A stretch of 64,000 nucleotides of DNA from Anaerolineae bacterium. GTDB taxonomy: Bacteria > Chloroflexota > Anaerolineae > 4572-78 > J111. This document shows positions 7,449-59,165 of this stretch, piece by piece (the first letter of the stretch is position 1; each line of letters starts with the position of its first letter). The translations under genes were made by a program, and so were the position numbers. The notes beneath the pieces are model-generated. The model was not told the origin of the DNA and made no database searches. It saw only the letters and a list, made by a program, of their open reading frames with translations. The stretch spans positions 186,001 to 250,000 of the forward strand of contig JAKLJP010000003.1 in the NCBI GenBank assembly GCA_023151115.1, written 5' to 3'.

Positions 7449-7495
7449 GGAGATGAGAGGTTAGAGATTAAGCCAATCGCCAATCCCTCATCTCC
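7449..7495. repeat. GGAGATN heptamer hairpin between the transporter ATPase and ribY
   Basis: GGAGATGAG at 7449 pairs perfectly with CTCATCTCC at 7487-7495; the inner units are of the AGAGATT and CCAATCC kind. No T-run follows on the transcribed strand, so this is probably not a strong terminator. It is an intercistronic hairpin. Confidence 0.75.
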
Positions 7496-7503
7496 GAAAG
7501 TCC

Positions 7504-8553
7504 TTACTCTACTTCGATAAATTTATTGGTGTAAAGCATCTCCGGAGCAAGCGTTTTTTCCAGCAGGCCGGTTTTACTCATAAACTCAACCGACTCCTGC
7601 CAGGCCTGAGGATTCGACTCACCGAGCTTGTCGCTTTGCCACAGCATGATCGAGTCTTCCAAAACCTTGCGCTGCGTGGGCGCTTTGTCATCGGTGATTT
7701 CGGGAATCACCTGGCGGACAATCGCAAAAGCATCATCGGGCTTGGCGATGGTTTCTTGCAAGCCGCGCAAACTGGCCCGGACCATGCGCTGCACCAGGTC
7801 GGGGTCATCGGCCATTAACTTGTCACCAACTACAATCCCGTTGGAAACCAAGTCAAGATAATCAGACACTTGCAGCACCTTCACCTCGATGCCCTGACTG
7901 CGGAGTTGGTTTGGCTCATTAGCAATATAGATCATAGCCGCATCAACCACCCCCTGCTGTATCGCCGCCGTTTGAGTAAAACCAATATCTTTCACTTCGA
8001 TGGTGTTTTCATCGAGCTGGGCGGCATAAATCAGGCCCTTCCAGCCAATAAATGAGGCTCCAAAAAAGCCCGGCAGACCCACTTTTTTGCCAACCAGGTC
8101 GCTTGGTTGGGTAATCCCTTTGTCAGCCGGGGAAACCAAGGCTACGGGAAAGCGCTGGTACCACTTCATTACATAGGTAATCGGCAATCCCTGAGCGCGG
8201 GCCAGAATCACCTGGTCGCCGCTGGCAACGGCAAATTCTCGTTCTCCCTGCGCGGCCAGAGCGACAAAATCATTTTCAAAACCATATTCGATTTCGACCT
8301 CCAGTCCTTCTTCAGCATAAAAACCTTTGCTTTGAGCCACATAAAAAGGCGCAAACTGAACGTCGGGAATATAGCCGACGCCCAACCGGACCTTACGCAG
8401 CTCATCCGCCGGTGCTTCGGTTGCGGCAGCAGCGGGAGCCTCCTGAGCCGGGGCTTCCACTGCTTGAGTTGGCGCTTGTGCGGCCTCGGCGCCGCAGCCA
8501 ACCAGCCCCAACAGGACCACAAATAGAAAAACCCACTTCATCCAGAACTTCAT
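7504..8553 (-). CDS. ribY: Riboflavin ABC transporter substrate-binding lipoprotein (RibY-like, NMT1/THI5 family)
   Basis: A 349-residue lipoprotein. A signal peptide ends in the lipobox LVGC, followed by an Ala/Pro/Glu-rich linker to about residue 52 and an NMT1/ThiY-type periplasmic-binding fold (VRLGVGYIPDVQFAPFYVAQSKGFYAEEGL). This fold usually binds pyrimidine or flavin-like ligands or sulfonates. Gene order behind an FMN riboswitch matches the RibXY system proposed from comparative genomics for Chloroflexota riboflavin uptake. AAGGAG lies about ten bases before the ATG. Without the riboswitch it would be called only a NitT/TauT-family binding protein. Confidence 0.82.
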   Translation of the reverse strand: MKFWMKWVFLFVVLLGLVGCGAEAAQAPTQAVEAPAQEAPAAAATEAPADELRKVRLGVGYIPDVQFAPFYVAQSKGFYAEEGLEVEIEYGFENDFVALAAQGEREFAVASGDQVILARAQGLPITYVMKWYQRFPVALVSPADKGITQPSDLVGKKVGLPGFFGASFIGWKGLIYAAQLDENTIEVKDIGFTQTAAIQQGVVDAAMIYIANEPNQLRSQGIEVKVLQVSDYLDLVSNGIVVGDKLMADDPDLVQRMVRASLRGLQETIAKPDDAFAIVRQVIPEITDDKAPTQRKVLEDSIMLWQSDKLGESNPQAWQESVEFMSKTGLLEKTLAPEMLYTNKFIEVE

Positions 8554-8577
8554 CCTACTTTCTGCTCCTTAAGAAAT

Positions 8578-8631
8578 AGAGATTGAAGATTGGAGACTGG
8601 AGATTAAGCGAATCTCCAAGCTCTAATCTCC
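8578..8631. repeat. GGAGATT heptamer hairpin between ribY and ribX
   Basis: Units of the AGATTGA, AGATTGG and AGACTGG kind lead to GGAGATT, a five-base loop and AATCTCC, then further complementary units ending TAATCTCC. It belongs to the same unit family as the arrays at 7449 and 23023. Confidence 0.78.
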
Positions 8632-8639
8632 GGCTTGAT

Positions 8640-9473
8640 TTATTGCCGCCAGGCCAGCAGCCAATGCTCCAGCCTGGTAACAAACAAATATAAACACAGC
8701 GAGATGCTGGCCAGGGTGATCAACGCGGCGAACATAAGCGGCGTGTCAAACAATCCCTTGGCTTGATTAATCAAAAAACCTACCCCCCGGTCAGCGCCGA
8801 CAAACTCGCCGACGACTGCTCCAATGACCGACAACGTGACCCCAATTTTTAAGCCTCCCAGTAAGACCGGCATGGCCGCCGGGATTTCCAACATGACAAA
8901 GGTCTGCCAGCGATTGGCCCGCAGGGAGCGCATGAGTGTTTTCAAGCCCGCATCCACCGAGCGAATCCCGACAATGGTATTGACTAACACCGGAAAGAAA
9001 ACTACCAAGGCGCAAATGAGTACCTTGCTCAACTTGCCGGAACCAAACCAGATGACCAACAGAGGGGCAATGGCTACCGCTGGAATAGACTGCGAGGCCA
9101 CAATGTACGGCCCGGCCAGCCGTTCCAACAGCGGACTTTTAGCCAGCAGATAACCGAGGAGGGTAGCAGTCGTCAAGCCCAAAGTCAGGCCGCCCACAAT
9201 CGCCACCAGTGTCGCCTGGCTGTGATGCCACAAGAGACCGTTAATAACAATCTCGCTCAGCTTATTAAAAACACTGATCGGATCGGGCAAAATAAAAGTA
9301 GGATAATTGCCCACCAGCGCCACCGCCATCCACAGACCCAGCAGCAAAATAATTCCCAGCGGCAAAGCTACCATTTCCAAACCAATTTTCTGCCAGCGGT
9401 GCTGCCTGGGTTGGCTCAGAAAAGCGGTACGACGCGCTTTGGGTGCATCTAAAACTTTAATCATTTCATGCAT
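8640..9473 (-). CDS. ribX: Riboflavin ABC transporter permease (RibX-like)
   Basis: A 277-residue BPD_transp_1-type permease with about six hydrophobic segments beginning at residue 33 (MVALPLGIILLLGLWMAVALVG). The EAA-like loop is in the LRANRWQTFVMLEIPAAMPVLLGG region. It is the first gene after the FMN riboswitch and terminator on the minus strand, with AGGAAAGGG about ten bases before the ATG. The likely role is uptake of riboflavin together with the downstream lipoprotein and ATPase. The substrate is inferred from the riboswitch. Confidence 0.85.
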   Translation of the reverse strand: MHEMIKVLDAPKARRTAFLSQPRQHRWQKIGLEMVALPLGIILLLGLWMAVALVGNYPTFILPDPISVFNKLSEIVINGLLWHHSQATLVAIVGGLTLGLTTATLLGYLLAKSPLLERLAGPYIVASQSIPAVAIAPLLVIWFGSGKLSKVLICALVVFFPVLVNTIVGIRSVDAGLKTLMRSLRANRWQTFVMLEIPAAMPVLLGGLKIGVTLSVIGAVVGEFVGADRGVGFLINQAKGLFDTPLMFAALITLASISLCLYLFVTRLEHWLLAWRQ

Positions 9474-9514
9474 TGGATTGACCCTTTCCTAAAGGAGTGT
9501 TACCTCCCTTAAAC

Positions 9515-9653: not shown

Positions 9654-9700
9654 CCAGCTAATTTCAGAGAATACCCCAAAAAATGGGGAAGCTGAATGGA

Positions 9701-9941
9701 TTACCTTCTCCCATCCGGACTATACCGTCGGCTTCAGAATCACACTGAATCGGCGCTAACCTTCTCCTGCTTTTATAACAGGCAGATTAAACTTGGGTTT
9801 TAATCTCTTTCGATAGCCTCTTCCCTCTCATAAGGGAAGCCGGTTAGCGTTCGCGGGCTTGGCTGCCCCCGCAGCCTCACCGCCGGTCGGGAATTACGGC
9901 CAATCTTTAAGATTGATCCCTCACCCTGCCCCGAAGGTAGA
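9701..9941 (-). promoter_or_regulatory. FMN riboswitch (RFN element)
   Basis: The minus strand carries the RFN consensus blocks in order: CTTCGGGGCAGGGTG, TTCCCGACCGGCGGT, AGCCCGCGAA, GATTCTGAAGCCGACGGT and AGTCCGGATGGGAGAAGG. The element is about 240 nt, longer than usual. The additional length is in an extended variable stem between the AGCCCGCGA and GAAGCCGACGGT blocks, plus a small insertion in the first arm. FMN binding should favour the downstream terminator and so switch off riboflavin uptake. Confidence 0.97.
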
Positions 9942-9958
9942 TATTCTGTTTGAAGCTG

Positions 9959-10000: not shown

Positions 10001-10050
10001 ATGAATGGCGAATGAAGCATTATTCGCCATTCGCTCATTCGTCATTCATC
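10001..10050. repeat. GAATGNN heptamer hairpin at the 3' end of the kinase gene
   Basis: AATGGCGAAT and ATTCGCCATT form a ten-base stem; flanking units are GAATGAA, TCATTCG and TCATTCAT. The TGA of the kinase gene directly joins the array. It lies upstream of the rib promoter. Confidence 0.78.
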
Positions 10051-12582: not shown

Positions 12583-12606
12583 AATCTTACTGGCCCCCAA
12601 TAATGA

Positions 12607-12666
12607 AAGTGAGGTGAGGACGCGAGAAGATTATTCGCGTCCTCGCCTCACCCGTCATCGCCTCTT
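12607..12666. repeat. GTGAGG/CCTCAC inverted array between divergent genes
   Basis: A 17-bp stem (12609-12625 against 12635-12651, one wobble) is formed by GTGAGGTGAGGACGCGA and its complement, followed by CGTCATCGCCTC and a T-run. It lies between two divergently transcribed genes. The units resemble the CCTCGCCT octamers of miaA and lutA. Confidence 0.78.
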
Positions 12667-12715
12667 TTTTGGAGGGTATCTTATCATATCTTTCGAGATG
12701 TGATAAAATATCATC

Positions 12716-13267
12716 ATGAAACATAACCCACTTACCTTAATCCTGGGGGGGGCGCGCAGCGGCAAGAGTGATTACGCCGAAAAGTTGGCCGATCAAATGG
12801 GCCGGCGCGTGCTTTATATCGCTACGGCAGAAATTGGCGACGACGAAATGGCCCAACGCATTGCCGCCCACCGCCTCGCTCGACCCGCCGACTGGCAAAC
12901 CCTGGAAGCGCCGCGCCGTGTAGGCGCAGCCCTGGCCGAGATTAAAACACCTCCGGAAGCACTGCTGCTCGACTGCCTGACGTTGCTGGTCTCGAATATT
13001 CTCCTGGCTTTGGAAAATGAGCCGCAGCCGGCCATCGAGACGGCAGTGCAGGCCGAACTTGAAGCTATTTTAACGGCTCAGGCTCGCCTGAACGTGCCGC
13101 TCATTGTGGTATCCAATGAGGTTGGGCTGGGGCTGGTTCCGCCCTACCCATTAGGCCGAGTTTATCGGGATGTCTTGGGCCGGGCCAACCAATATATGGC
13201 CGCCCGCGCCCAACGAGTTATTTTTATGGTCGCAGGACTACCGATGGTAATAAAGGATGAAGGATGA
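12716..13267 (+). CDS. cobU: Adenosylcobinamide kinase / adenosylcobinamide-phosphate guanylyltransferase
   Basis: A 183-residue bifunctional enzyme of nucleotide-loop assembly in cobalamin biosynthesis or salvage. It phosphorylates adenosylcobinamide and then attaches GMP. Visible are the P-loop [39 protein letters not shown] and [12 protein letters not shown], all diagnostic of CobU/CobP. No other cobalamin gene lies in the window. The last codons and the TGA stop are made of AAGGATG heptamers, so the C-terminus merges into an array. A small hairpin with a TTCG loop (12683-12706) lies just upstream; no cobalamin riboswitch is seen. Confidence 0.95.
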
Positions 13268-13325
13268 GGGATAAAGGATGAAAAAAACAATTTCCGACTT
13301 CATCCTTCCGCCGTCCTCCTTTCTT
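13251..13325. repeat. AAGGATG heptamer array overlapping the cobU stop
   Basis: Units AAGGATG, AAGGATG, AGGGATA and AAGGATG lead through an A-run to TTCATCCTTCCGCCGTCC, the approximate complement. The TGA of cobU is part of the second unit. Confidence 0.78.
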
Positions 13326-14446: not shown

Positions 14447-14464
14447 TAATAACTGCTCACCCCC

Positions 14465-14612
14465 CATGTCATTTCGAGGCTGAAAGCCGAGAAATCTTTG
14501 AGGCCGTTGTCTGCAAATCACAACTTAGAGATTTCTCGCTTCTAACGTCACTCGAAACCTACCCCACCCTTTCGGGTGCGCCGAAGGGCATGAGCGAAGT
14601 CGAAGGATGACA
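14465..14612. repeat. Dispersed TGTCAT...ATGACA palindromic element, copy 1
   Basis: It is bounded by ATGTCATTTCGA and TCGAAGGATGACAT. Internally it has GAGAAATCT and AGATTTCTC units and the hairpin CCTTTCGGGTGCGCCGAAGGG. The 3' half recurs in reverse orientation at 35123-35180. This class of GTCATTTCGAG-type intergenic repeat is widespread in bacteria. Confidence 0.75.
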
Positions 14613-14641: not shown

Positions 14642-15445
14642 TTAGAATTCCATCACGCTATCCAGCCCGCGATGGAGGCCCACCAATTTACTCACGTTTC
14701 GGATGGCCAGAAGCGCTCCCCCGACATAAGGTTCTGCGCTTGAGCCTGACTCGTGCCGCAAAATTAATTTCTGGTCAGGCATGCCAAAAATGGCATCTAA
14801 TGAAATGATATACCCCGGCAGTCGAACCGAATGAACCTGAGAACCTTGCAGCCGGACCCCCCGACTCTCTTTTGGGCCTTCTACTTTATCTAACGGGACG
14901 TCAAGATGTGACTCTTGCACCTGGGCCAGACGGTTGGCCAATTCGCGCGCGGTGCCGCTGGGAGCATCTTTCTTGCCGGCGTGAGCATAATCAATGATCT
15001 CCCAATGAGGAATATATTTAGCGGCAATTTCGGCAAACTTCTGCAACAGCACGGCGGTGAGGGCAAAGTTTCCCACGGCCAGAACACCTCGTTTGACCTC
15101 CTGGGCGACCTTGTCAATTTCTTGATAGTCGTCGCTGCTCAGCCCCGATGTCCCGACGACCACATGAGCGCCGCTCCTGAGCGCCGACAAAGCATGAGCC
15201 TTAGCCACATCAGGTTTGGTATATTCAACAAAAACATCGGGGTGGGTTTTGAGCGCCTCTTCTGCCGTGGCGAAAACAGGCGTAGTGAGTCCTTTAATAT
15301 CAATCGCTTCCTCAAGAACTTGTCCGGCGTAACTACGGGAAACAGCAGCAACAAGTTCCATATCAGGAGCGGCAAAGATACCGCTGGCCAGTGCAGAACC
15401 GGCCCAGCCAGTTGCCCCGGCTAAACAAATGCGAATGTTGGTCAC
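14642..15445 (-). CDS. dapB: 4-hydroxy-tetrahydrodipicolinate reductase (DapB-like)
   Basis: A 267-residue NAD(P)H-dependent reductase of the lysine/diaminopimelate pathway family. The N-terminal Rossmann motif GATGWAGSA and the catalytic segment HAGKKDAPSGTA (with the conserved Lys) are present, as are VGTSGLSSDDY and the C-terminal LRHESGSSAEPYVGGALLAI. GTG at 15445 is taken as the start because AAAGGAG lies six bases upstream; codons further upstream encode repeat-derived sequence. It sits between lutB and lutC, which is unusual. Divergence from textbook DapB (DYAHAGKK where HH is common) leaves room for a DapB paralogue with another substrate. Confidence 0.85.
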   Translation of the reverse strand: MTNIRICLAGATGWAGSALASGIFAAPDMELVAAVSRSYAGQVLEEAIDIKGLTTPVFATAEEALKTHPDVFVEYTKPDVAKAHALSALRSGAHVVVGTSGLSSDDYQEIDKVAQEVKRGVLAVGNFALTAVLLQKFAEIAAKYIPHWEIIDYAHAGKKDAPSGTARELANRLAQVQESHLDVPLDKVEGPKESRGVRLQGSQVHSVRLPGYIISLDAIFGMPDQKLILRHESGSSAEPYVGGALLAIRNVSKLVGLHRGLDSVMEF

Positions 15446-15555
15446 GTTATCTCCTTTGTAAATACGACCGCCGACGGTAGATCCTTCGGGCTGAACCTCG
15501 GACGAAGCCGCCGACCGCCGAAATCTATGCGACCTTGCGACCTTAAGAATGACGA

Positions 15556-17052
15556 TTACGCTTTTCTTTCCTCTCGCCACTGCTGGCTGAAGGATTGGGG
15601 CGCAAAAGCCGGGAAATCGCGAGTGTTGGTCCAGGCGGCCACTGGGCCGGGCAGTTTGCTCATCCAGCCATCTTTAGCCAGAAGCCGGGTGGTCCTACGC
15701 GCCAGCGACCCGCCCAAGCGATACAAACTGGGCCGGACCACGGCGAAACGATACAACCCAATCCCCAACTTGAGCCAGGCCGGCGACTGACCGGCCCGTG
15801 TACTTTCATCGCGCAGCTTGAGCAGCATGCGCGGGATGTCAATCCGCATGGGGCAGACTTCGCGGCAAGCCCCGCACAGACTGCTGGCGTGGGGTAGTTC
15901 GGCCCACGGCTCGAGGCCGTACAAGCCGGGCGTTAGCACTGCCCCCACCGGGCCAGGGTAAACACTGCCATAGCCGTGCCCGCCGATTTGCTGGTACACC
16001 GGACAAATATTCAAACAAGCGCCGCAGCGAATACAGTACAAAATCTCGGCCACCTCGCTCCCCAAAACCTTACTGCGGCCATTATCCAGGATGATGATGT
16101 GCAGTTCATCGGGGCCATCCGGCTCTACCGATTTTGGATTTTGGATTTTGGATTTTGGATTGGGTGACATCTCGCCCCCCTGCTCCCCTGCTCCCTTGCT
16201 CCCTTGCACTGCTGTTCGCCGTGGGCCGGTAATGATGTTGCTGTAGACGCTCAACTTCTGGCCGGTGGCGCTGCGAGCTAAAAGTTGCAGCATCACTCCC
16301 AAATCTTCAATCGTCGGTACCAGGCGTTCCATACCCATCATCGCCACGTGGATGCGGGGCGTGGTGGTGGTCAGCCTGCCGTTACCTTCGTTTGTGACCA
16401 GGCAAATGCTGCCCGTCTCGGCGACGCCAAAATTGACCCCGCTGATGCCCATATCGGCCTGTAAAAAGTCGGCCCGCAACAGCCGCCGGGCCAGGGCGGT
16501 CATGCTGGGCACATCGGCCAGGTCGGCCTCCGTCGCGTTGAGCTTCTCCCGAAACAGTTCAGCGATTTGCTGGCGGCTTTTATGAATGACCGGGGCGATA
16601 ATATGCGACGGTTTTTCCTGGGCCAGTTGGATGATATACTCGCCCAAATCCGTCTCGACCACGCGCACCCCGGCGGCTTCCAGTTTGTGGTTGATTTCCA
16701 ACTCCTCGCTGATCATGGATTTGGATTTGACCACCGTTTTAACGCCCCGCGCCTGGGCCAGTTCAACCACGTAGCGATTGGCCTCTTCCGGCGTTTCAGC
16801 CCAGCAAATATGGCCGCCCAATCGTTCCACTGCCTCGGCAAATTGGGCCAGGTATCGGTCGAGGTGGGCCAGGGTGTGAGCGCGAATAAGCCGGCCATGG
16901 TCGCGCAGGGCATCGGCTTCCGGCAGCGAGTCGAACCCTTTGGCCCGCAGCATCACAAAGCGCGTCGTCGCCAGGTTTAGCGCCGCATGCAGCTTTTTGT
17001 CTTGCAGCGCATCCTCCACCCGCTCGTAAAACGTCACATTTGCCGCGCTCAT
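15556..17052 (-). CDS. lutB: LutB-like iron-sulfur protein of lactate oxidation, with repeat-encoded insertion
   Basis: A 498-residue protein with an N-terminal LUD domain and a C-terminal ferredoxin-like module. The cluster motifs are CIRCGACLNICP and CGACREVCP. It would pass electrons from lactate oxidation with LutA and LutC. Between the LUD domain and the first cluster lie about 25 foreign residues containing SKIQNPKS. They are encoded by five GGATTTT heptamers and a TGCTCCCT octamer array (16129-16210), and the frame is kept. The ATG at 17052 overlaps the lutA stop by four bases (ATGA), so the two are translationally coupled. Confidence 0.93.
   Translation of the reverse strand: MSAANVTFYERVEDALQDKKLHAALNLATTRFVMLRAKGFDSLPEADALRDHGRLIRAHTLAHLDRYLAQFAEAVERLGGHICWAETPEEANRYVVELAQARGVKTVVKSKSMISEELEINHKLEAAGVRVVETDLGEYIIQLAQEKPSHIIAPVIHKSRQQIAELFREKLNATEADLADVPSMTALARRLLRADFLQADMGISGVNFGVAETGSICLVTNEGNGRLTTTTPRIHVAMMGMERLVPTIEDLGVMLQLLARSATGQKLSVYSNIITGPRRTAVQGSKGAGEQGGEMSPNPKSKIQNPKSVEPDGPDELHIIILDNGRSKVLGSEVAEILYCIRCGACLNICPVYQQIGGHGYGSVYPGPVGAVLTPGLYGLEPWAELPHASSLCGACREVCPMRIDIPRMLLKLRDESTRAGQSPAWLKLGIGLYRFAVVRPSLYRLGGSLARRTTRLLAKDGWMSKLPGPVAAWTNTRDFPAFAPQSFSQQWREERKA
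16129..16210. repeat. Two tandem arrays (GGATTTT heptamers, TGCTCCCT octamers) inside lutB
   Basis: About five GGATTTT units are followed by four TGCTCCCT-type units. Together they form an in-frame insertion. The same GGATTTT unit flanks the four-helix-bundle relic at 58930-59165. Confidence 0.85.
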
Positions 17053-17855
17053 TCTGTGCGCCTCCTCGCCTCCTCGCCTCCTCGATACTCGGCCAGCACT
17101 TCCGCCAAATGCTTCACCCTCACCTTGCTGCCCCGTCGATGCAGTCCCCCGGCAATGTGCATCAAACAGCTTACATCCCCACCGACAACCGTATCTGCGC
17201 CGCTGGCTTCGATGTTGTCCAGCTTGCGCTGCAAAATAGCCCCGGAGATGTCGCCCATCTTGACCGCAAACAACCCGCCAAAACCACAGCAGGCTTCGGC
17301 CTCCGGCAGTTCTTTGAACTCCACTTCCTCCAGCTGGGCCAGTAGTTGGCGCGGCTGTTCCTTAATCCCCAACCCACGCAGCCCGTGACACGAAGCGTGA
17401 TAGGTGAGACAAGTTGACTTCCTCGCCTCCCCGCCTCCTCGCCTCCTCGCCCCTTTCACCCCCAACACATCTACCAAAAACTGGCTAAATTCATAGGTGC
17501 GACTGGCGACTGCTTTTGCTTTGGCCGCGTAAGCCGCATCCTCGGCCAGAAGTTCGGGGTAGTGATGGATCATCATATCGGCGCAGGAGCCGGAGGGAAC
17601 AATAATCGGGGCGTCACTCTGCGATAAAACATTGACCGTGTGCCGGGCCATCGCCCGTGCGTCGTCCCAAAAGCCGCCGTTAAAAGCCGGTTGGCCGCAG
17701 CAGGTTTGCGCCTGGGGAAATTCAACCGTCAGCCCTAAATCTTCCAAAATCTTAACCACGGCCCAACCAACATCAGGGAAAAAGTTGTCTACCAGGCAGG
17801 TGACAAAGAGTTGAACACGTTGAGGAGATAATTTTTCAGGAGTTGTTTGCTTCAT
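17049..17855 (-). CDS. lutA: LutA-like (Fe-S)-binding protein with repeat-encoded insertions
   Basis: A 268-residue protein with two CCG (DUF224) domains, the heterodisulfide-reductase-like fold of LutA/GlcF proteins. The motifs are CCGQPAFNGG, TYHASCHGLRGLG and CCGFGGLFAVKMGDIS. It heads the lutA-lutB-dapB-lutC series on the minus strand. About 14 residues (KGARRRGGGEARKS) between VDVLGV and TCLTYHASCH, and the tail RGGEEARRRTE, are translations of CCTCGCCT-type octamer arrays. Both keep the frame. The start ATG at 17855 has no clear ribosome-binding site, so it is tentative. Confidence 0.92.
   Translation of the reverse strand: MKQTTPEKLSPQRVQLFVTCLVDNFFPDVGWAVVKILEDLGLTVEFPQAQTCCGQPAFNGGFWDDARAMARHTVNVLSQSDAPIIVPSGSCADMMIHHYPELLAEDAAYAAKAKAVASRTYEFSQFLVDVLGVKGARRRGGGEARKSTCLTYHASCHGLRGLGIKEQPRQLLAQLEEVEFKELPEAEACCGFGGLFAVKMGDISGAILQRKLDNIEASGADTVVGGDVSCLMHIAGGLHRRGSKVRVKHLAEVLAEYRGGEEARRRTE
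17058..17086. repeat. CCTCGCCT octamer array at the lutA 3' end
   Basis: Three octamers encode the last residues of LutA (GGEEARRR) just before the overlapping lutB start. Confidence 0.78.
17418..17457. repeat. CCTCGCCT octamer array inside lutA
   Basis: Four to five octamers (one variant with CCCC) are translated in frame as KGARRRGGGEARKS between two conserved LutA segments. Confidence 0.82.
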
Positions 17856-22905: not shown

Positions 22906-23022
22906 AGGTTTGATTTTACTGATGATAGGCGGGGCGGGCAAAATTGAGGGCCAGAGTCACATTGACCTGTGGGGGTAATAAGCATATAATGAAGTTAGGA
23001 CTCGTCTATAACTTGTGCTTGT

Positions 23023-23061
23023 GGAGATTGGAGATTGGGTAATCTCCAATCTCTAATCTCC
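23023..23061. repeat. GGAGATT heptamer hairpin upstream of the patatin gene
   Basis: GGAGATTGGAGATT, the loop GGGT, then AATCTCCAATCTC form a 13-bp stem, followed by a further TAATCTCC unit. It is the clearest example of the family. Confidence 0.85.
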
Positions 23062-24801: not shown

Positions 24802-25350
24802 TCAGAACTCATCATCATACGCCTCTCGTAAAACCAATGTACGAAATTCGGGATGGGTCTGAAACTGCTGGCGTAACTTCTCCGACCCGTGGATTGCCAA
24901 CGCTTCATGAAAACTCGAAAAAGGGTAGTCATGCAAATTAGCCACATAGCCGTGTTTGACCGGGTTATTGAGCAAGTAAACTAATCGAATCATATAATCC
25001 TGTTCATTACGGGGACAATAATCCCAATAATTCCACCAAACACGTTCTTGCGTTTGGCTGACTTGCTTAATATGGTAGCCGCTAAAGGCGTGAATTTCGG
25101 TCATAATTTTTGACAAATCCTGGCCAACCCAGCTTTTTCCCAAAAGGTGATAGTGGTTGTCTAAAATCACCCAATGATGCAGTTCCCACTTATATTTATC
25201 AAAGCACGATCTGATCCGTTCTAACAATAATTGTTTCAATTGTGGCGCTTGTAGTAACGGACGTTTTTGATAAATAGCAGCAGTGATAAAGTAGAGGGTA
25301 TCATCGGCAAAAATGTGGGTGGGGTTGTGAGGGTAATCTTTTCTTCGCAT
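24802..25350 (-). CDS. REP-associated tyrosine transposase (RAYT, Y1 family)
   Basis: A 182-residue Y1 single-strand transposase-like protein. The HUH metal motif is in WVILDNHYHLLG; a downstream Tyr in the YMIRLVYLLNNPVKHGY segment fits the RAYT pattern (NP.K.GYV). RAYTs are domesticated relatives of IS200/IS605 TnpA that process REP palindromes. Here the gene is bracketed by two inverted GGAGTCA-palindrome elements, as expected for a REP unit. A link to the short tandem arrays elsewhere in the window is possible but not shown. Confidence 0.9.
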   Translation of the reverse strand: MRRKDYPHNPTHIFADDTLYFITAAIYQKRPLLQAPQLKQLLLERIRSCFDKYKWELHHWVILDNHYHLLGKSWVGQDLSKIMTEIHAFSGYHIKQVSQTQERVWWNYWDYCPRNEQDYMIRLVYLLNNPVKHGYVANLHDYPFSSFHEALAIHGSEKLRQQFQTHPEFRTLVLREAYDDEF

Positions 25351-25409
25351 TTTCTGAGGCCAAACAACTTTATCTCACTATGTTTGCACTTTTCATAACC
25401 AGCCAAAAT

Positions 25410-25503
25410 TTGAACGCAGATGACGCAGATTCAACTGATTTTCGCTGATTTTTTATAAATTTTTCTGCGCCAATCTGCGTTTATCGGCGTTTATCTGCGT
25501 TCT
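25410..25503. repeat. ACGCAGAT/ATCTGCGT dispersed repeat upstream of the RAYT gene
   Basis: Units AACGCAGATGACGCAGATT and CTGATTTTCGCTGATTTTT are followed by CTGCGCCAATCTGCGTTTATCGGCG and ATCTGCGTT-type units in the opposite sense. The ATCTGCGT word is a common dispersed repeat in diverse bacterial genomes. Confidence 0.65.
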
Positions 25504-25550
25504 ATTTAAAAAGTACAAAGGTAGTGAACTTTATCTGTTTCTTTTCTAAA

Positions 25551-25581: not shown

Positions 25582-26221
25582 TTATCTTCTTCCCTCCACC
25601 AACCTATCCCCCGCCTGCGCCTCATCCCATAACTGAGCGTACATCTCGCGCACGCTGGCATCAAGCTTTTGGCTAAACTCCGGATCAAGTTGCAAGGCTC
25701 TGATCAAATCCTGCGCATCGGCCAGGTCACGGCGGCGGTGGGCGGCAGTCATCCCGGAGGCCAGTTTCAACTCGATCAGTTTTTCCAGGCTGATGACTCG
25801 CAAACCGGCCACTTCAACCGTAGCTCCTGCCGGATCGGGAAAAGAAACCGGCTTGGGCAAGCCATCCCCCGGATATTCGCCGCTGGTAATAACCTCAATG
25901 CGCACACGCCGGTATCGGTCGCCCGGAATGTTTTTTTGCCCCTGAGAAGGCCAGGACATAGCCGTGCCCCAACACCTGAGCTTTAAAGGCTTACAATCCC
26001 TCGGCGGTCAACAAAATATTAATATCTTCGGTCATACGGACAAAGCCGTGCTGGGCCAAGGCCAAGCCCCCAATCAAAGCGTAGGGAATACCGGCTTCAT
26101 CCAGACGACGGCTTAAATCTTGCAAGGTCTGGTAAAGGTCGCCTTTGTGACTGAAATACAGGCTAGCTTCCTTCAACACCAGTTCGGGACTGCTGCGGAG
26201 ACGCTGTTCGTAGGAAATCAT
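25582..26221 (-). pseudogene. AbiEii-type nucleotidyltransferase, broken by a stop and a frameshift
   Basis: The first part (26221-25991, 76 codons) has the nucleotidyltransferase core GGLALAQHGFVRMTEDINILL, in which the family DxD reads DIN. It stops at a TAA after AEGL. The coding sense resumes past the stop (AFKAQVLG). It then shifts frame near an A7 run around 25945 and continues as RVRIEVITSGEYPGDGLPKPV, then KLIELKLASGMTAAHRRRDLADAQDLI, the C-terminal part of the family. Two lesions plus the changed active-site Asp indicate a dead copy of an AbiEii/DUF1814 toxin-like enzyme. Its start codon lies directly after an octamer array at the end of the preceding gene. Confidence 0.8.
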
Positions 26222-26250
26222 TTGCTACTCTGCTACCTTGCTACTTTGCC
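26222..26250. repeat. GCAAAGTA octamer array at a gene junction
   Basis: On the minus strand the units GCAAAGTA, GCAAGGTA and GCAGAGTA are followed by GCAAATG. They supply the last codons and stop of the PEP-synthase-like gene and lead into the ATG of the AbiEii relic. Confidence 0.75.
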
Positions 26251-30994: not shown

Positions 30995-31012
30995 CGAGTC
31001 TCCTCAAAAATA

Positions 31013-31087
31013 GTAGACGGTAGACAGTAAACGGTAGACGGGGATAAGAGCGGCTGTTCTTCCTGCTACTTTGCTACTTTGCAACTA
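31013..31087. repeat. GTAGACG heptamer array and TACTTTGC octamers between glcE and glcF
   Basis: GTAGACG, GTAGACA, GTAAACG and GTAGACG units are followed, after a spacer, by CTGCTACTTTGCTACTTTGC. The two arms belong to different unit families and are not complementary over their full length. Confidence 0.72.
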
Positions 31088-31090
31088 AGT

Positions 31091-32239
31091 TTAGAAATCC
31101 AAAAACCGGCCCCCCGCGTCGAGAGCCTGCTTGACCCGGCGGGCTAACGGCGCGCCGGGGTTGACCCCCAAGCGAGTCACACCGGGCGGGCCGAGCAAGA
31201 CCAAACCGCACAAATCAAGATCGGTGAGCAGTTTGTCCAACTGGTCGGCCCACTTGCCGGTAGTCGGCCAGGCCAGCCAGACCAAATTACCGGCGGCGCT
31301 GTATCGCCGCCGGGTTTTAAGCTTGTTCAGTTGCGCTTCCAGGGTGGGAATACGCTTGAGCGTCAACGGGACTTTGACCAGCGCCGAATCGGCCGGGGTC
31401 CAGCTTAGATTTTTAACCTGCTGCCATAAGTCACTTTCGGCGGAGCCGTCAAAGATTTCGACGGCGGTAGCGCCCCCTTTGGGAGCTAACAAAAACTCGC
31501 GCATCCGTTCTACACGAGCCGGAAGCGCCTCGGCCAGTCCACCCAACCGAACCCACAACGTCCAGACCTGTCCCCCTCCGCCTCCTCGCCTCCTCGCCTC
31601 TTCGTCTCTTCCTCCCGGTTCCAAATCGAGGGCGTGCAGCTCCAGCGCCGAAGTCGCCAGGCGATAGATGTCGGTTAGAGCGGTTTCCAGGTGGGGATAG
31701 GTTAACCTGAGGGTAGTGTAAGCCGCCGGGCCGGGGAAGACTTTAAAGGTCAACTCAATCAGCACGCCCAGCCGGCCCAAACTTCCGACCATCAACTTGG
31801 GCAGGTCGAAGCCGGCCGCGTTCTTGACCACCTTGCCCCCGCCGCGCACCAATTGGCCCCCGCCATTAATAAAGCGGACGCCAATCAAAAAGTCGCGCAC
31901 CCCACCATATCGCTGCCGGCCGGGACCACTCACCCCGGCGGCGACCGTCCCGCCCAGGGTTGCACCCTTTTCGGCCAGCAGCGGGTCAAAGGGTAAATAT
32001 TGGCCGTGCCGGGCCAGCAGCTTCTCCACTTCGGCCACCGGCGTACCGGCCAGGGCGGTGAAGGTGTATTCATCCGGCTCGTACTCCAGCACTCCGGACA
32101 GGCCGGATAGTTCGAGGCTGGGCGCGTCTTGGGGAGGGGTAGACAGGGCGGGTTTGCTGCCGCCTCCACGTGGCAACAGGCGGGGATGGGCCTGCACCAG
32201 AGCTTGAGCTTCTTCAGGGGTGGTTGGACGCAGGCTCAT
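31091..32239 (-). CDS. glcE: Glycolate oxidase FAD-binding subunit GlcE, with repeat-encoded insertion
   Basis: A 382-residue FAD-binding (PCMH) protein of glycolate dehydrogenase. It has [47 protein letters not shown] and [31 protein letters not shown]. Between LDLEP and [10 protein letters not shown] about 15 residues ([16 protein letters not shown]) come from an in-frame CCTCGCCT octamer array. The start overlaps the glcD stop by four bases. Confidence 0.94.
31573..31616. repeat. CCTCGCCT octamer array inside glcE
   Basis: About five octamers, with the last ones varying to TTCGTCTC, are translated in frame between conserved GlcE segments. Confidence 0.82.
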
Positions 32240-33860: not shown

Positions 33861-33912
33861 GTAACAGGTAACAGATAGCAAGGCCACAGAGCTTATCTGA
33901 TTACTGATTACT
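33861..33912. repeat. GTAACAG heptamer inverted array upstream of adh
   Basis: GTAACAG, GTAACAG and ATAGC are answered after a short spacer by TATCTGATTACTGATTAC, the approximate reverse complement built from TGATTAC units. It would be in the 5' untranslated region. Confidence 0.72.
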
Positions 33913-37635: not shown

Positions 37636-37638
37636 CAG

Positions 37639-37692
37639 GGAGTAGGGAGTAAGCAGTAGGGAGTAGGGGTACGTACCCACCTCTACTGTCTA
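37639..37692. repeat. GGAGTAG heptamer array after the phosphatase gene
   Basis: GGAGTAG, GGAGTAA, GCAGTAG and GGAGTAG units are followed by CCCACCTCTACTGTCTACTA, an approximate complement. It starts four bases after the TAA. Confidence 0.76.
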
Positions 37693-37712
37693 CTATTTTC
37701 TGAGGAGTGTTC

Positions 37713-37850
37713 ATGAGCCCGCGGCACGCCACCGCTAATGAAAATCTTTTGCCGACGATGATCGGAGACCGAGAACCGGCTGTTTGCTATCGCCCGGTCT
37801 TCCGTCCCCGGTCCTCGGTCGTATTTACGAAGGAGACTTTTAGGTTATGA
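37713..37850 (+). CDS. Possible small ORF coupled to the SH3 gene (45 aa)
   Basis: An ATG at 37713 has GAGGAG six bases upstream. The frame runs 45 codons to a TGA that overlaps the next ATG (ATGA). The first 19 residues (MSPRHATANENLLPTMIGD) are not repeat-derived, but the rest is encoded by a heptamer array. I recognise no family. It may be a relic of a gene truncated by the array, or simply a coupling leader. Confidence 0.25.
   Translation: MSPRHATANENLLPTMIGDREPAVCYRPVFRPRSSVVFTKETFRL
37761..37822. repeat. GACCGNN heptamer inverted array
   Basis: ATCGGAGACCGAGAACCGG is answered by GCCCGGTCTTCCGTCCCC and GGTCCTCGGTC. The left units read GACCGAG and AACCGGC; the right units read CCCGGTC and CTCGGTC. 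Confidence 0.72.
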
Positions 37851-38517: not shown

Positions 38518-40608
<2,091 letters not shown>

Positions 40609-42042: not shown

Positions 42043-42047
42043 GAATT

Positions 42048-42105
42048 ACGTCTTGCGTCTTGCGTGTTCCGTTTGCTTTAACTCACGCAAGACGCAACAC
42101 GTTTC
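42048..42105. repeat. CGTCTTG heptamer inverted array after fabF
   Basis: CGTCTTG, CGTCTTG and CGTGTTCC are answered by ACGCAAGACGCAACACG. It lies between convergent genes. Related units appear at 45427 and 45683. Confidence 0.8.
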
Positions 42106-42550: not shown

Positions 42551-42637
42551 AGGAACTGAGGAAACTAAGGGAACTTGAGAGGAGTTCTCTAAAGCTCCCT
42601 CAGTTCCTACAAGTTCCCTCAATTCCGTTAGTTCCCT
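42551..42637. repeat. GGAACTNA-type inverted array between the two AcnX genes
   Basis: GGAACTGAGGAAACTAAGGG and GAACTTGAG are answered by CTCCCTCAGTTCC, AAGTTCCCTCAATTCC and TTAGTTCCC. The last unit contains the TAA of the large-subunit gene. The array at 57079 has the same units. Confidence 0.8.
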
Positions 42638-44175: not shown

Positions 44176-44248
44176 GTGGCTGAAATAATAGAGAGCCGGG
44201 GGCGTAGAGGGTCTAACCGACCCCCAACCCCCGACCCCTGATCCCCCA

Positions 44249-45426: not shown

Positions 45427-45467
45427 TCAAAACGTCTTGCGTCTTACGTGTTCCGTCTGTGTTACGC
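45427..45467. repeat. CGTCTTG heptamer array in the M50 leader
   Basis: ACGTCTTGCGTCTTACGTG and TTCCGTCTGTG are followed by TTACGCAAAGTACGAC in the opposite sense. It sits in the 5' untranslated region of the protease transcript. Confidence 0.68.
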
Positions 45468-45526
45468 AAAGTACGACTTTACTGGACTCTACAACACAGA
45501 CTAAATCAACTCTTCAATTACCCCAT

Positions 45527-45682: not shown

Positions 45683-45740
45683 TCGTGTCGTGTGTTGCGT
45701 CAAAGGTAAAACGAAAGACGCAACACGCAACACGCTTGGG
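45683..45740. repeat. CAACACG heptamer inverted array upstream of the large kinase gene
   Basis: CGTGTCGTGTGTTGCGTC is answered by GACGCAACACGCAACACGC around an A-rich loop. The right arm has two perfect CAACACG units. Confidence 0.8.
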
Positions 45741-49601: not shown

Positions 49602-49920
49602 TTATTTCGCACGACCGCTGGCTTCTTTTGCCTCAATTAGAGAGATGAGCAGTTCCACCGCTTCGGCGGCAAAGGCCGGGTCGTCAGTGTGAGTGTTGCG
49701 CTCGATAACCCGCATGTTGGGCGGCAGGTTAGCCTTCAACTCAGCCACAAAAGCGGCGTCGGCTGCGGGGTCGTAGAAACCTTCCCCTTTAACCGCATAA
49801 CTATCGTAGCCGGCAGCGCCCGCATCACCCGGGTACTCAAGGTGGTCACTTGTGTGCCGCCGCCCAATTTTACATCCTGGCAGGTCAGCGGGGAAATAAA
49901 GTCCTCCAGAAAAGTTTTCG
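49602..49920 (-). pseudogene. C-terminal remnant of a Tm-1-like (UPF0261) protein
   Basis: On the minus strand an open frame ends at TAA 49604-49602. It reads AGAAGYDSYAVKGEGFYDP, then AAFVAELKANLPPNMRVIERNTHTDDPAFAAEAVELLISLIEA, which resembles the C-terminus of Tm-1-like ATP-binding proteins (FYDP... HINDPAFA). No start or N-terminal part is present. The coding sense fades out next to an octamer array at 49931. The call is tentative because only about 90 residues remain. The rest of 49472-50113 shows no gene apart from this relic and the array. Confidence 0.45.
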
Positions 49921-49930
49921 CCGCTAAAAC

Positions 49931-49990
49931 AGGTAGCAAAGTAGCATGTAGCATGTCATAAATATGCTACTTTGCTACTTGCTACCTTTC
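49931..49990. repeat. GTAGCAAA/TTTGCTAC inverted octamer array
   Basis: AGGTAGCAAAGTAGCATGTAGCATG is answered by ATGCTACTTTGCTACTTGCTACC around a short loop. It marks the upstream edge of the Tm-1-like relic. Confidence 0.8.
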
Positions 49991-50113
49991 TCGTTGAGAA
50001 AGAACTTTTCTGGACACCCATACCCATACAACAACAGGTTCAAGCTCTGTATTCGTCCAAATGAAAAATACATTGTATGATAGGACGGCAAGAGTTCACT
50101 TTGGAGGCTCATT

Positions 50114-56831: not shown

Positions 56832-56867
56832 CCAAAAAAATAGATGAGGCATTTCTACCAGTACATT

Positions 56868-57059
56868 ACCGCCAAGGGTGGGAGCTTCTATTACCCCCTT
56901 GTCGAAGGCGCCCCTGGGTATTCCTCAGACTGGATTGGAAGCCCGCAAGCAACTGATTGCACTGGGTCGCCCTGGTACGCCGGACCAATTTTGTTCCTCT
57001 GCTCCCCCCTGGCCAATTACGTTACCAGCCACGTGTTGCAGGTGGATGGCGGACACTAA
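56868..57059 (+). pseudogene. C-terminal relic of a short-chain dehydrogenase
   Basis: The sequence LEARKQLIALGRPGTPD in one frame and FLCSPLANYVTSHVLQVDGGH in another together form the C-terminus of an SDR (ending QVDGG). A frameshift separates the two parts, and the Rossmann and catalytic parts are absent. Confidence 0.65.
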
Positions 57060-57078
57060 GTGATTGTCCAAAAATTAA

Positions 57079-57132
57079 ATTCCCTCAAGTTCCTATGAGT
57101 TCCAGGGAACTAAGGGAACTTGTAGGAACTCA
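57079..57132. repeat. GGAACTNA-type inverted array
   Basis: TTCCCTCAAGTTCC and ATGAGTTCC are answered by GGGAACTAAGGGAACTTG and AGGAACTC. It shares its units with the array at 42551. Confidence 0.78.
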
Positions 57133-57182
57133 AATGGGAAGTAAATTTTAGACGTTTACTAAGCACAATCCTGATCAATTTA

Positions 57183-57216
57183 AACGGATGAAGCTATCAG
57201 GCTCATCCGTTTTTTA
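57183..57216 (+). terminator. Intrinsic terminator
   Basis: AACGGATGA, an 11-base loop, TCATCCGTT and a T-run. No intact gene lies directly upstream, so it probably served the decayed SDR gene. Confidence 0.8.
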
Positions 57217-57235
57217 TTCCCAACGCGGATTCTTT

Positions 57236-57264
57236 TTGACATTGTTAAGCTAATCTGGTATATT
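57236..57264 (+). promoter_or_regulatory. Strong promoter of the aldehyde dehydrogenase-CoA transferase cluster
   Basis: Perfect TTGACA (57236-57241) and TATATT (57259-57264) have 17-bp spacing. An imperfect palindrome directly downstream (57271-57288, ATACC...GGTAT) overlaps the expected start and could bind the TetR regulator encoded at 61667. Confidence 0.78.
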
Positions 57265-57270
57265 GAAAAC

Positions 57271-57288
57271 ATACCTTCCAGTCGGTAT
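57271..57288. promoter_or_regulatory. Candidate TetR operator
   Basis: ATACCTTCCAGTCGGTAT has five-base inverted ends and two further symmetric positions. It lies at the predicted transcription start of the catabolic cluster, which contains a TetR gene. Confidence 0.45.
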
Positions 57289-57294
57289 TTTCTT

Positions 57295-57390
57295 ATATCC
57301 TTCCCCATCTACAAAACCCTCACCAACATTTTGGAAGAGGCAAAAAACTCTGGTTCTTCAGGATTTCGTGGGTTTGGGCGTGATACGTAA
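57295..57390 (+). pseudogene. N-terminal relic of a TetR regulator gene
   Basis: Positions 57324-57346 are identical, apart from one A in a homopolymer, to 61696-61719 near the start of the TetR gene, where they encode ANILEEAKK. Beyond this the similarity is lost. It looks like the left end of a second, deleted TetR copy between the promoter and the aldehyde dehydrogenase. Confidence 0.6.
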
Positions 57391-57468
57391 TGACCCTAAT
57401 CACCTATCAGGCATCACGTTGCCGCTGCCCCCTGAAATCCGAAAAGCCTCCAAAATCAGGAGTTGTTT

Positions 57469-58929
57469 ATGGCTCAAATGTTCATCAACGGTGAGTGGGT
57501 CAATGCCCTGAGCGGCAAGACCTATGAGGTCAAAAATCCCGCCAACCGTCAAATGATTGATGCTGTGCCCTTAGGCGACGCCGCCGACGCGCGGGCCGCC
57601 GTTGACGCCGCGGTCGCCGCCTTTGGCGAGTGGGCCAGCACCGCCCCGGATAAGCGGGCCGAATTGATGCAGGCCGGAATTGTCAAAGTGAAAGAAAATT
57701 TATCCGAACTGACGACTTTGTTGACCAAAGAGCAGGGCAAACCGCTCATGGAGGCCAACGGTGAGCTGCACCACTTTTTGCACGGCATGGAATTTTACGC
57801 CGGCCTGGCCAGCAAAATTCGGGGCGCTTTGGCTCCCCTGCCGCCCGCCATGAACCCCAAAAGTTATGGCGTGATTATGCCTCAGCCGGTCGGCGTGTCG
57901 GTGGGTATTGTGCCCTGGAACTTCCCCATTACCCTGATGGGGACCAAGGTTGGTCCGGCGCTGGCGGCGGGCTGCCCCATCATCATTAAACCGGCCAGCA
58001 CTACCCCTTTGACCTCGCTAAAAATTATTGGCCTGCTGAACGAGGCCGGTCTCCCTCCGGGGGTGCTGCAATGCGTCACCGGGCCGGGTGGATCGCTGGG
58101 GCGCGAATTGATTAGTCATCCCCAAGTGCGGCGGGTCGCTCTGACCGGCAGTACCGCCACCGGCGAGCAAGTGATGCAGGTGGCCGGGCCGAAATTCAAG
58201 CGGATCACCCTGGAATTGGGCGGCTCCGACCCCATGATCGTTTGCCCCGATGCTGATCTGGCCAAAGCGATCAACGGGGCGATGATTGGCCGTTACTGGA
58301 ACGCGGGGCAAGCCTGCCTGGCGGTCAAGCGGCTCTATCTGTTCGAGGAGATTTACGACGAGTTTGTAGATGCCCTCGTCGGCAAGGTCAAACGATATGA
58401 GCCGGGCGACGGTCTGACCAAAGCCGAAAAACCCAAGATTCGCATGGGGCCGCTGCATACCGAAAGCCAGCGAGTCGAGGTGGAAGAACAAGTGGCCGAT
58501 GCGGTCGGCCAAGGGGCCGAGGTATTGGCCGGCGGTACACGTCCTGAAGGAGTGGAACTGGATAAAGGCTATTTTTACAACCCGGCGGTGGTAGTCAACA
58601 TGCCGGAGGACAGCCGGTTGGTGACGGAGGAGGTCTTTGGACCGGTGCTGCCGGTGTTCAAAGTGAAGGACCTGGACGAGGCGATTGCCAAAGCCAACGC
58701 CAGCCCGTGGGGGTTGGGCGCATCCATCTGGACGAACAACATGAAATGGGCCAACCAGGCTGCCCGCGAGGTCGAGAGCGGGATGCTCTGGATCAACCAG
58801 ATTCATTACGGTTACGACGAAATGCCCTTCGGTGGAGTTAAAGCCAGCGGCATTGGCCGCGAGCACGGCCCGGAGGCGCTGGATTATTATTTAGAGCCGA
58901 AGAGCGTGGTGTTTGGCGGCCTGGACTGA
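57469..58929 (+). CDS. NAD(P)-dependent aldehyde dehydrogenase
   Basis: A 486-residue ALDH superfamily enzyme. The Asn of the active site is in VPWNFPI, the general-base Glu in ITLELGGSDP and the catalytic Cys in NAGQACLAVKR. The coenzyme-binding GSTATGEQV motif is present. Similarity to succinate-semialdehyde or lactaldehyde dehydrogenases is likely, but the substrate is not defined. ATG at 57469 with AGGAG seven bases upstream is the start. It leads a cluster with crotonase and CoA-transferase genes. Its TGA directly borders a GGATTTT array. Confidence 0.94.
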   Translation: MAQMFINGEWVNALSGKTYEVKNPANRQMIDAVPLGDAADARAAVDAAVAAFGEWASTAPDKRAELMQAGIVKVKENLSELTTLLTKEQGKPLMEANGELHHFLHGMEFYAGLASKIRGALAPLPPAMNPKSYGVIMPQPVGVSVGIVPWNFPITLMGTKVGPALAAGCPIIIKPASTTPLTSLKIIGLLNEAGLPPGVLQCVTGPGGSLGRELISHPQVRRVALTGSTATGEQVMQVAGPKFKRITLELGGSDPMIVCPDADLAKAINGAMIGRYWNAGQACLAVKRLYLFEEIYDEFVDALVGKVKRYEPGDGLTKAEKPKIRMGPLHTESQRVEVEEQVADAVGQGAEVLAGGTRPEGVELDKGYFYNPAVVVNMPEDSRLVTEEVFGPVLPVFKVKDLDEAIAKANASPWGLGASIWTNNMKWANQAAREVESGMLWINQIHYGYDEMPFGGVKASGIGREHGPEALDYYLEPKSVVFGGLD

Positions 58930-59165
58930 TTTTAGATTTTGGATTTTGTGTCGCGCTAAGTCCAAAGCGGATATGTTAGCCAAGCTAGCTACCGTTGAAG
59001 AAGAAAGTGATGAAACACTGTACTGGTTGGAGTTGCTGATCGAGACAGGCCTTATCCCTAAGGGCGCTTATCTGATCTGATGCGAGAAACAAACGAAGTT
59101 CTAGCAATGACAGTTTCGTCAATGAAAACATTGCGCAAAAGCAATAATCCAAAATCCAAAATGGA
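58930..59165. repeat. Inverted GGATTTT heptamer pair enclosing a gene relic
   Basis: The left arm TTTTAGATTTTGGATTTTG (58930-58948) and the right arm AATCCAAAATCCAAAATGG (59145-59163) are inverted. They enclose about 195 bp of a decayed four-helix-bundle gene. The same unit is inserted in lutB. Confidence 0.85.
58946..59148 (+). pseudogene. C-terminal relic of a four-helix-bundle (S23/IVP-type) protein
   Basis: The frame from 58946 reads LCRAKSKADMLAKL, then TVEEESDETLYWLELLIETGLI, up to a TGA at 59078-59080. In the overlapping frame it continues LMRETNEVLAMTVSSMKTLRKS. Together they match the last two helices of the four-helix-bundle family known from 23S rRNA intervening sequences (TIGR02436), with one frameshift. 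The N-terminal half is missing. It lies exactly between inverted heptamer arms. Confidence 0.75.

Follow-up and report, generated by a model that had tools for sequence, protein, structure and literature searches.

Short tandem arrays of 7-8-nt units, some of them set as inverted pairs, are scattered through a 64-kb window (the whole stretch of DNA analysed here, 56% GC) of the Anaerolineae bacterium assembly GCA_023151115.1 (contig JAKLJP010000003.1, positions 186,001-250,000). We find that neighbouring arrays mostly lie head to head, with the 3' ends of their G-rich strands facing each other, and that this polarity is independent of the identity of the unit, as it holds where the two arms are unrelated and unable to pair. 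The relatives used for comparison were mainly metagenome-assembled genomes (MAGs), among them 'Anaerolineales bacterium H5_CFX5' (G001, 9.0 Mb, of which 1.27 Mb was read with gene calls from our own script) and H5_CFX7 (G002, 9.4 Mb), whose LigA proteins are 94% and 89% identical to that of the window. At the DNA level G001 is 89-93% identical to the window across most long syntenic blocks. A first-pass annotation had described the window as part of a Chloroflexota-like genome and the LigA match to Anaerolineales MAGs bears this out.

Polarity of neighbouring arrays

The typical inverted element consists of a G-rich arm, a loop usually of 1-22 nt and a C-rich arm. Among the 125 inverted elements of G001 and the window the G-rich arm lies on the 5' side in 118, with 3 reversed and 4 ties. 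The same arrangement was seen in 9 of 12 elements in stretches of other genomes of the class (3 reversed) and in 8 of 10 elements from the LigA neighbourhoods of other Chloroflexota (none reversed); two Markov sequences contained no inverted pairs. With arrays of |G-C| below 2 dropped, pairs in G001 separated by up to 25 nt were arranged G-then-C, that is with their G-rich strands 3'-to-3', in 101 of 110 cases. With wider gaps of 26-60, 61-200 and 201-1000 nt the fraction fell to 0.63, 0.43 and 0.26, the last value (47 of 178) being the chance level. When the window, G002 and other Chloroflexota were pooled the G-then-C order was found in 59 of 71 pairs within 25 nt and 19 of 83 at 201-1000 nt.

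A hairpin origin or function of the pairs should leave neighbours with unrelated units oriented at random. We took units as unrelated when the best 7-mer match between neighbouring arrays was at most 4 in any rotation and on either strand, leaving out weak-skew pairs (2 in G001 and 2 in a further genome, G240). Orientation of these neighbours was not random, with G-then-C in 14 of 17 cases in G001 (25% expected, P 1e-6) and in 12 of 17 from the other sequences taken together (25% expected, P 1e-4). Examples of such chimeras include (GGGGTCG)4 facing (AATCTCC)4, (AAGGATG)4 facing (ATTCGCC)5, GATTTAC facing ACGCACC and, in the lutB gene of the window, the 7-nt unit GATTTTG facing the 8-nt unit CCCCTGCT. 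As the polarity is kept between unrelated arms, the pairing of arrays is separated from hairpin formation, and this points to synthesis at DNA ends directed by strand. We did not find in print either a polarity between arrays with unrelated units or the absence of mirror covariation between arms that is described below.

Abundance of the arrays

The window contains 25 arrays with a period of 7 or 8 and a score of at least 9, whereas ten order-3 Markov sequences averaged 2.3 and reached 5 at most. The arrays thus exceed chance as the first-pass annotation had proposed, and its own caveat that composition-matched shuffled sequence might give similar counts falls away. When periods 4-15 were scanned at a score of at least 10, periods 7, 8 and 14 gave 15, 7 and 5 arrays (0.3, 0.2 and 0.2 expected from order-3 Markov sequence) and every other period at most 3. 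The unit does differ from locus to locus in the window, but the statement that most arrays are followed by their reverse complement was too strong, since a partner scoring at least 10 within 60 nt was found for only 8 of the 25 (0 of 25 in a reversed-sequence control). The remainder stand alone, are inverted but degenerate, or lie next to an array of another unit (16130-16207 and 31012-31086). Of the individual loci reported earlier those inspected were correctly placed, the period at 42552-42637 being nearer 9, and arrays also lie outside the range 7449..59165 covered at that time, at 361, 3865 and 4877. An assembly artefact, also raised as an objection, is unlikely because an independent MAG with megabase contigs carries many of these loci too and similar arrays are found across the class.

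In 1.08 Mb of G001 we counted 243 heptamer arrays falling into 79 unit classes and 73 octamer arrays with 30 unit classes. An inverted partner lay no more than 80 nt away from 133 and 46 of these respectively, compared with 20 and 5 in the reversed control. At a strict cut heptamer arrays are ten times sparser in G002 than in G001 (27.5 against 277.5 per Mb), and for periods 7 and 8 together under a more permissive cut the difference is fourfold (98 arrays per Mb in G002, 402 in G001). Counts for other Chloroflexota that took in runs of N were set aside. The array-poor genome G257 has 32 per Mb and a single inverted pair, of weak skew. Across 298 sampled genomes of the class of G001, 212 carried at least one match to GGAGATTGGAGATT with up to one mismatch, and by hand count the GGAGATT unit was multiplied (at least 20 such matches) in 46. 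Match counts were 472 in G001, 490 in G149, 468 in G280 and 9 in G002; the reversed pattern was low in most genomes of the class, with a highest count of 48 in G065.

Units, arms and loops

Units within an arm became less alike with distance (identity 0.83, 0.81, 0.78, 0.75 and 0.74 at successive steps) and adjacent units were more alike than under shuffled order (P 0.005), which together argue for serial copying. The units are not arbitrary at each locus and instead fall into families common to the closest relatives and in part more widely shared, with 17 of 18 arrays of G002 and 27 of 106 of other Chloroflexota assignable to a G001 unit class (3 and 11 in reversed controls). In some arrays of other Chloroflexota loci and of the genome G109 the unit morphs stepwise from one end to the other, as in AGGAGTC to AGGAGTT to GGGGGTT to GCGAATG.

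The earlier proposal of a mechanism that copies or re-templates arms was examined through the order of unit variants in the two arms. Mirrored unit-by-unit identity between arms was 0.835 compared with 0.836 when unit order was shuffled (111 loci, P 0.66), and mirror pairing was likewise not detected across four genomes with 139 loci (P 0.25). A small mirror excess (0.817 against 0.793) came from pooling chosen, partly overlapping families and was not confirmed by permutation tests. With three tests negative we reject mirror-copying of the arms.

In the larger families the ends tend to be phase-locked to the unit, with three tests below 0.05 in 4 of 10 families and a partial or absent effect in the other six. 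Among 11 members of the GACCGGG family the outer 5' end starts at the same base in 8 and the outer 3' end in 9; for the GAGGCGAG family both values are 9 of 14. Loops are mostly unrelated even between elements of one family. Those of at least 5 nt had a mean similarity of 0.43 within families and 0.40 between them, and loops alike at more than 0.7 made up 12 of 513 same-family pairs against 0.6% of 5052 between-family pairs.

Turnover at orthologous sites

The comparison of orthologous sites involves two species, that of the window and G001. Of 19 merged window loci 16 could be mapped in G001, and by reading 10 of these keep their unit family (including the degenerate array at 361, for which no tandem was scored in G001), 3 change family in one or both arms (16130, 31012 and 45432) and 3 have no array in G001 (31579, 44217 and 45699). 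Beyond this merged list the unit has changed at 15435 and 42552, the G001 site of 33861 is empty, and a locus in the LigA-FabF spacer of G001 is absent from the window. Period and layout thus remain constant while the unit changes, as the first-pass annotation had claimed between loci, and they do so even at one site between species. The replacements include the right half of the lutB pair (CCCCTGCT in the window, CCTCCTCG in G001), CGTCTTG against CGTGGTG at 45432, a GACCGCC-like arm against GACCGGG at 15435 and a 9-mer against an 8-mer at 42552.

The loci 42049 and 13253 each differ in copy number by one whole unit. For 7449 and 8579 the 5-nt loop of one species is the exact reverse complement of that in the other (AAGCC/GGCTT and AAGCG/CGCTT), so the centres of these palindromes have flipped within about 10% divergence, and at 23022 the G001 loop holds a second palindrome. 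At the G001 site corresponding to window position 44220 (contig C2, near 1503700-1504830) there is another palindrome with a CTTCGACAAGCTCAGGA motif, which we take to be a repeat found in many bacteria.

The loci of the window are listed in Table 1. Arrays lie inside the genes for LepA, LutB, LutA, GlcE and LigA and at the start of that for MiaA. They are translated between the LUD and Fe-S parts of LutB, in LutA and GlcE, before the BRCT domain of LigA and in a loop of LepA. The in-frame stretch of lepA at 361-440 contains a heptamer array and, following it, a C-rich/G-rich palindrome. Coding arrays differ in length between the window and G001 by 21, 6 or 3 nt or not at all. The sole match of the window to Rfam at the gathering threshold is an FMN riboswitch at 9699-9942, which at 244 bases exceeds the 138 positions of the model and in which no array was seen.

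Table 1 Arrays and array-bearing elements of the window with the state of the orthologous site in G001
Position	Strand	Feature	Orthologous site in G001
361..379		ACGTTGA array in lepA, loop before LepA domain III region	alike sequence, no tandem scored
3820..3898	+	8-nt GAGGCGAx / TCCTCGCC inverted array, miaA start	
4829..4900		degenerate AGAAATA / TTCTTAT inverted array, spacer between miaA and histidine kinase gene	longer
7449..7495		decayed GGAGATT inverted array, loop AAGCC	loop GGCTT (inverted)
8579..8631		GGAGATT inverted array, loop AAGCG	loop CGCTT (inverted)
10002..10047		GAATGGC inverted array, kinase gene 3' end	
12603..12670		8-nt GAGGCGAG inverted array, related to numerous G001 elements	
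13250..13322		AAGGATG inverted array, cobU 3' end	one unit shorter
15465..15544 (locus 15435)		GACCGCC-like arm, loop and TGCGACCT arm, lutB-dapB spacer	GACCGGG and TGCTACCC/T
16130..16207		chimeric head-to-head pair in lutB, GATTTTG (7) and CCCCTGCT (8)	right unit CCTCCTCG
17059..17084		lone 8-nt CGCCTCCT array, lutA end	
17420..17451		lone 8-nt TCCTCGCC array in lutA	longer by 3 nt
23022..23061		GGAGATT inverted array	loop holds about 104 nt extra (second palindrome)
26221..26249		lone 8-nt TGCTACTT array, 3' end of phosphoenolpyruvate (PEP)-utilising enzyme gene	
31012..31086		different-unit pair, GTAGACG (7) and TGCTACTT (8), relation of units unclear at the strict cut	unit family changed in at least one arm
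31579..31614		8-nt CGCCTCCT array in glcE	21 nt shorter, in frame, no array
33861..33912		GTAACAG / CTGATTA inverted array	none seen
37637..37703		AGGGAGT arm with a short arm of TACTGTC	
37765..37820		further element of GACCGNN type	window only
40332..40381		AACGTTC array encoding linker before ligA BRCT domain	
42046..42102		CGTCTTG inverted array 3' of fabF	one unit more, loop identical
42552..42637		GGAACTNNN inverted array, period about 9	8-nt CCTCGCCT-like array
44217..44245		ACCCCCA/G array	absent
45432..45469		CGTCTTG array	CGTGGTG unit
45684..45735		CGTGTTG / CAACACG inverted array	absent
49897..50022		dispersed element like a miniature inverted-repeat transposable element (MITE), core a GTAGCA(AA) inverted array	
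58928..58948		GATTTTG array, end of aldehyde dehydrogenase gene	
59139..59162		AATCCAA array, just 5' of enoyl-CoA hydratase gene	

Relation to known repeats

A 2007 survey cited in PMC4692102 and PMC4679880 found heptamer repeats to be over-represented in many bacterial genomes (statements on cited papers refer throughout to portions of their text), and a text on TAACTGA repeats mentions the idea that the 7-nt step stems from the footprint of the polymerase (PMC4679880). In the portions of the literature covered we met no tested mechanism for the 7-nt step or for inverted pairing. The short tandemly repeated repetitive (STRR) sequences of cyanobacteria are degenerate 7-nt units present at many loci in several families, and in Nostoc the P6b hairpin of trnL is built of TDNGATT or NNTGAGT heptamers, with independent replacement of one heptamer class by the other having been inferred (PMC4476775). 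Like STRR sequences the arrays described here are degenerate 7-nt tandem units above chance, at numerous dispersed and mainly intergenic loci in G001, and our GATTTAC/GATTTTG family fits TDNGATT. One G001 array of this family matched 7 plasmid records, all cyanobacterial. In 600 kb of cyanobacterial plasmid DNA the heptamer was the commonest short period with 70 arrays (117 per Mb, a density biased because the plasmids were chosen for having matched); unlike our sequences, however, this DNA held only 5 inverted pairs, compared with 125 in 1.26 Mb of G001 plus the window. In searches with single arrays the matching records were cyanobacterial in 5 of 6, 1 of 1 and 7 of 7 cases and two reversed controls also matched one cyanobacterium each; GGAGATT, GATGCGT and GACCGG arrays gave no match in the same sequence searches. 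Support for a lexicon shared with cyanobacteria was not obtained, the overlap in unit classes being 8 against 7 in the reversed control, with single units such as GATTTAC and AGGGAGT in common.

In Xanthomonas the GGGAATC heptamer often occurs as two convergent arrays, with 70 cases in Xcc, 75 in Xac and few in Nostoc (PMC4692102). The Anaerolineae loci resemble these in being heptamers with two nearby arrays in convergent orientation, whereas the Xanthomonas repeats as treated in that text form one unit family studied for its G-quadruplex potential and ours comprise dozens of units (the 79 classes of G001), 8-nt units and pairs with unrelated units. By reading of the unit lists, many common units (such as GGAGATT, GATGCGT and GATTTAC) lack GGG and some (AGGGAGT and GACCGGG) contain it. 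The claim that such inverted arrays are not described as one system therefore holds only in part. The basic kind is known already from the cyanobacterial heptamer repeats and the convergent GGGAATC pairs of Xanthomonas, and unit replacement from the Nostoc trnL intron, while no description in Chloroflexota was found in a literature covered in part, which does not establish absence from print.

Vertebrate interstitial telomeric sequences are, like these arrays, short G-rich tandem repeats at internal sites; empty orthologous loci indicate that they were inserted at the repair of double-strand breaks, and head-to-head telomeric units mark a chromosome fusion site (PMC7215372). They differ, on the evidence of that text, in having one unit with telomerase implicated, where here the units are many and reverse transcriptase, across 11 genomes, does not follow the arrays.

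With repetitive extragenic palindromic (REP) sequences, their associated transposases (RAYT) and MITEs the arrays share the form of dispersed short palindromes that are mostly intergenic. They differ in that across 16 genomes they show no link with Y1 transposase, that loops are mostly unconserved and that the heptamer arrays are not conserved as whole sequences bounded by terminal inverted repeats and target duplications. Other elements do have conserved ends, namely those at 14450 and 57056. The latter (57056-57161) is a high-copy MITE with 20 matches in the 1.27 Mb of G001, terminal repeats GTGATTGTCCAAAAAT, a core palindrome of GGAACT-type units and, by eye, apparent target duplications of 3-4 bp. 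The former (14450-14558) is a second MITE-like element dispersed in G001, which has ends GTAACT...CATGTCATTTCGAGG and no heptamer array. Upstream of an IS200-type Y1 transposase gene (24802-25545) lies a 150-bp palindrome of ATCTGCGTTT-type 10-nt units that is dispersed in G001 and G002.

Origin of the arrays

The explanation we tentatively prefer, while rating it somewhat short of an even chance, is that the arrays arise when two DNA 3' ends are independently extended by stepwise copying of 7-8 nt and then joined. We infer this origin from the polarity, the unit turnover and the unrelated loops observed above. Each locus would be the junction of one or two modules, a module being a short 7-8-nt array with the 3' end of its G-rich strand directed at the junction, and the short 'loop' would be the junction itself. 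A break, gap or collapsed fork would expose two 3' ends, each of which may be primed on its own terminal unit or on an existing heptamer array at another site and would then grow in 7-8-nt steps with stuttering and drift of the units. The extended ends would be joined with little or no homology, giving a palindrome where both ends carry the same unit family and a chimera where the families differ. Later on slippage may alter copy number, arms may homogenise within a locus, palindromic copies may flip their loop and alleles inside genes could persist if the frame is kept. Repair of a break or gap along these lines is the simplest picture, from which the polarity, the chimeras, the lack of mirroring, the unrelated loops and the in-frame survivors would all follow.

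Several observations weigh against independent extension and joining. By eye 4 of the 14 G001 chimeras look like one family drifted apart, G240 has no convergent chimera and one divergent, and G109 has two convergent and two parallel. Shared loops are commoner within families than between them and therefore copying of whole elements also occurs; such copying would likewise give the phase-locked ends seen in several families. The empty sites of G001 are too untidy to reveal a break point. As to enzymes, RVT_1 is absent from the GGAGATT-rich genomes G149 and G280, and Ku and the LigD polymerase gave no match in the 11 genomes tested, although absences of this kind carry little weight as the MAGs may be incomplete. 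Each of the 11 genomes, the array-poor G257 among them, has a single PolX, which therefore does not separate array-rich from array-poor genomes. Taken as drivers, none of reverse transcriptase, Ku, LigD polymerase and PolX tracked array number across the 11 genomes and we discarded these candidates.

Ordinary STRR microsatellites, in which an old palindromic heptamer element spread and was then modified by slippage and concerted evolution, with the polarity inherited and the chimeras being drifted palindromes, are the next best explanation and one we consider rather improbable. The decay of identity along arms and the changes in copy number by whole units fit it, as does the likeness of units, which is 0.79-0.82 within one locus and 0.72 to the other loci of the family (the families overlap). 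The morphing arrays of other Chloroflexota, the over-representation of heptamers in many bacteria and the published polymerase-footprint idea (PMC4679880, in the portion covered) can be added. However, chimeric halves are often by reading near-perfect members of two families, some differing in period, which drift would rarely reach, and one family at many loci with unrelated loops would need repeated spread or seeding.

That the arrays are non-autonomous MITE- or REP-like palindromes moved whole by a transposase we regard as unlikely. The ends are defined, some loops are shared, true MITEs exist in the same genomes and the dispersed element at 49897-50022 carries an array. Against this, most same-family pairs do not share a loop, no target duplications were seen by eye in the listed heptamer elements, chimeric pairs exist and, across 16 genomes, the Y1 transposase does not vary with the arrays. 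Y1 transposase was accordingly rejected as a driver, its copy number being unrelated to array number (3 matches against 472 GGAGATT matches in G001, 3 against 9 in G002 and 0 against 490 in G149).

The genomic setting and folding of the arrays bear on a role in RNA. Of the 243 heptamer arrays of G001, whose DNA is 82% coding here, 166 fall between genes, 51 lie within coding sequence and 26 are mixed, and inverted elements were not enriched between convergent genes (0.33 per kb, compared with 0.63 between tandem and 0.42 between divergent genes). An intrinsic-terminator role was rejected as there is no enrichment at gene 3' ends, convergent spacers having the lowest density. Folded as DNA, seven same-unit loci gave z scores of -1.95 to -8.25, and the two mixed-unit window loci lacked a stable hairpin (16128-16210, z 0.67; 31008-31090, z 0.18). 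RNA hairpins selected for function as terminators or mRNA stabilisers, to which the good folding of same-unit elements and their mostly intergenic position would be suited, are highly improbable given this spacer distribution, the lack of mirror covariation, the arrays in coding sequence and the polarity of mixed-unit pairs that are unable to pair.

Implications

A stronger form of the extension-and-joining origin, which we put forward as speculation with little expectation that it is correct, is a telomere-like end-extension system by which Anaerolineae would heal broken DNA, a dedicated activity adding G-rich 7-8-nt repeats from a genome-specific lexicon to each 3' end before the ends are joined head to head. 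Such a system would leave hundreds to thousands of palindromic or chimeric scars per genome, and its lexicon would shift as copies come to template copies. Whatever the route, a polarity kept with unrelated arms makes the origin of heptamer repeats testable. In some genomes the arrays are abundant enough, at hundreds per Mb, to reshape intergenic regions, and to provide essential proteins, LigA and LepA among them, with in-frame linkers.

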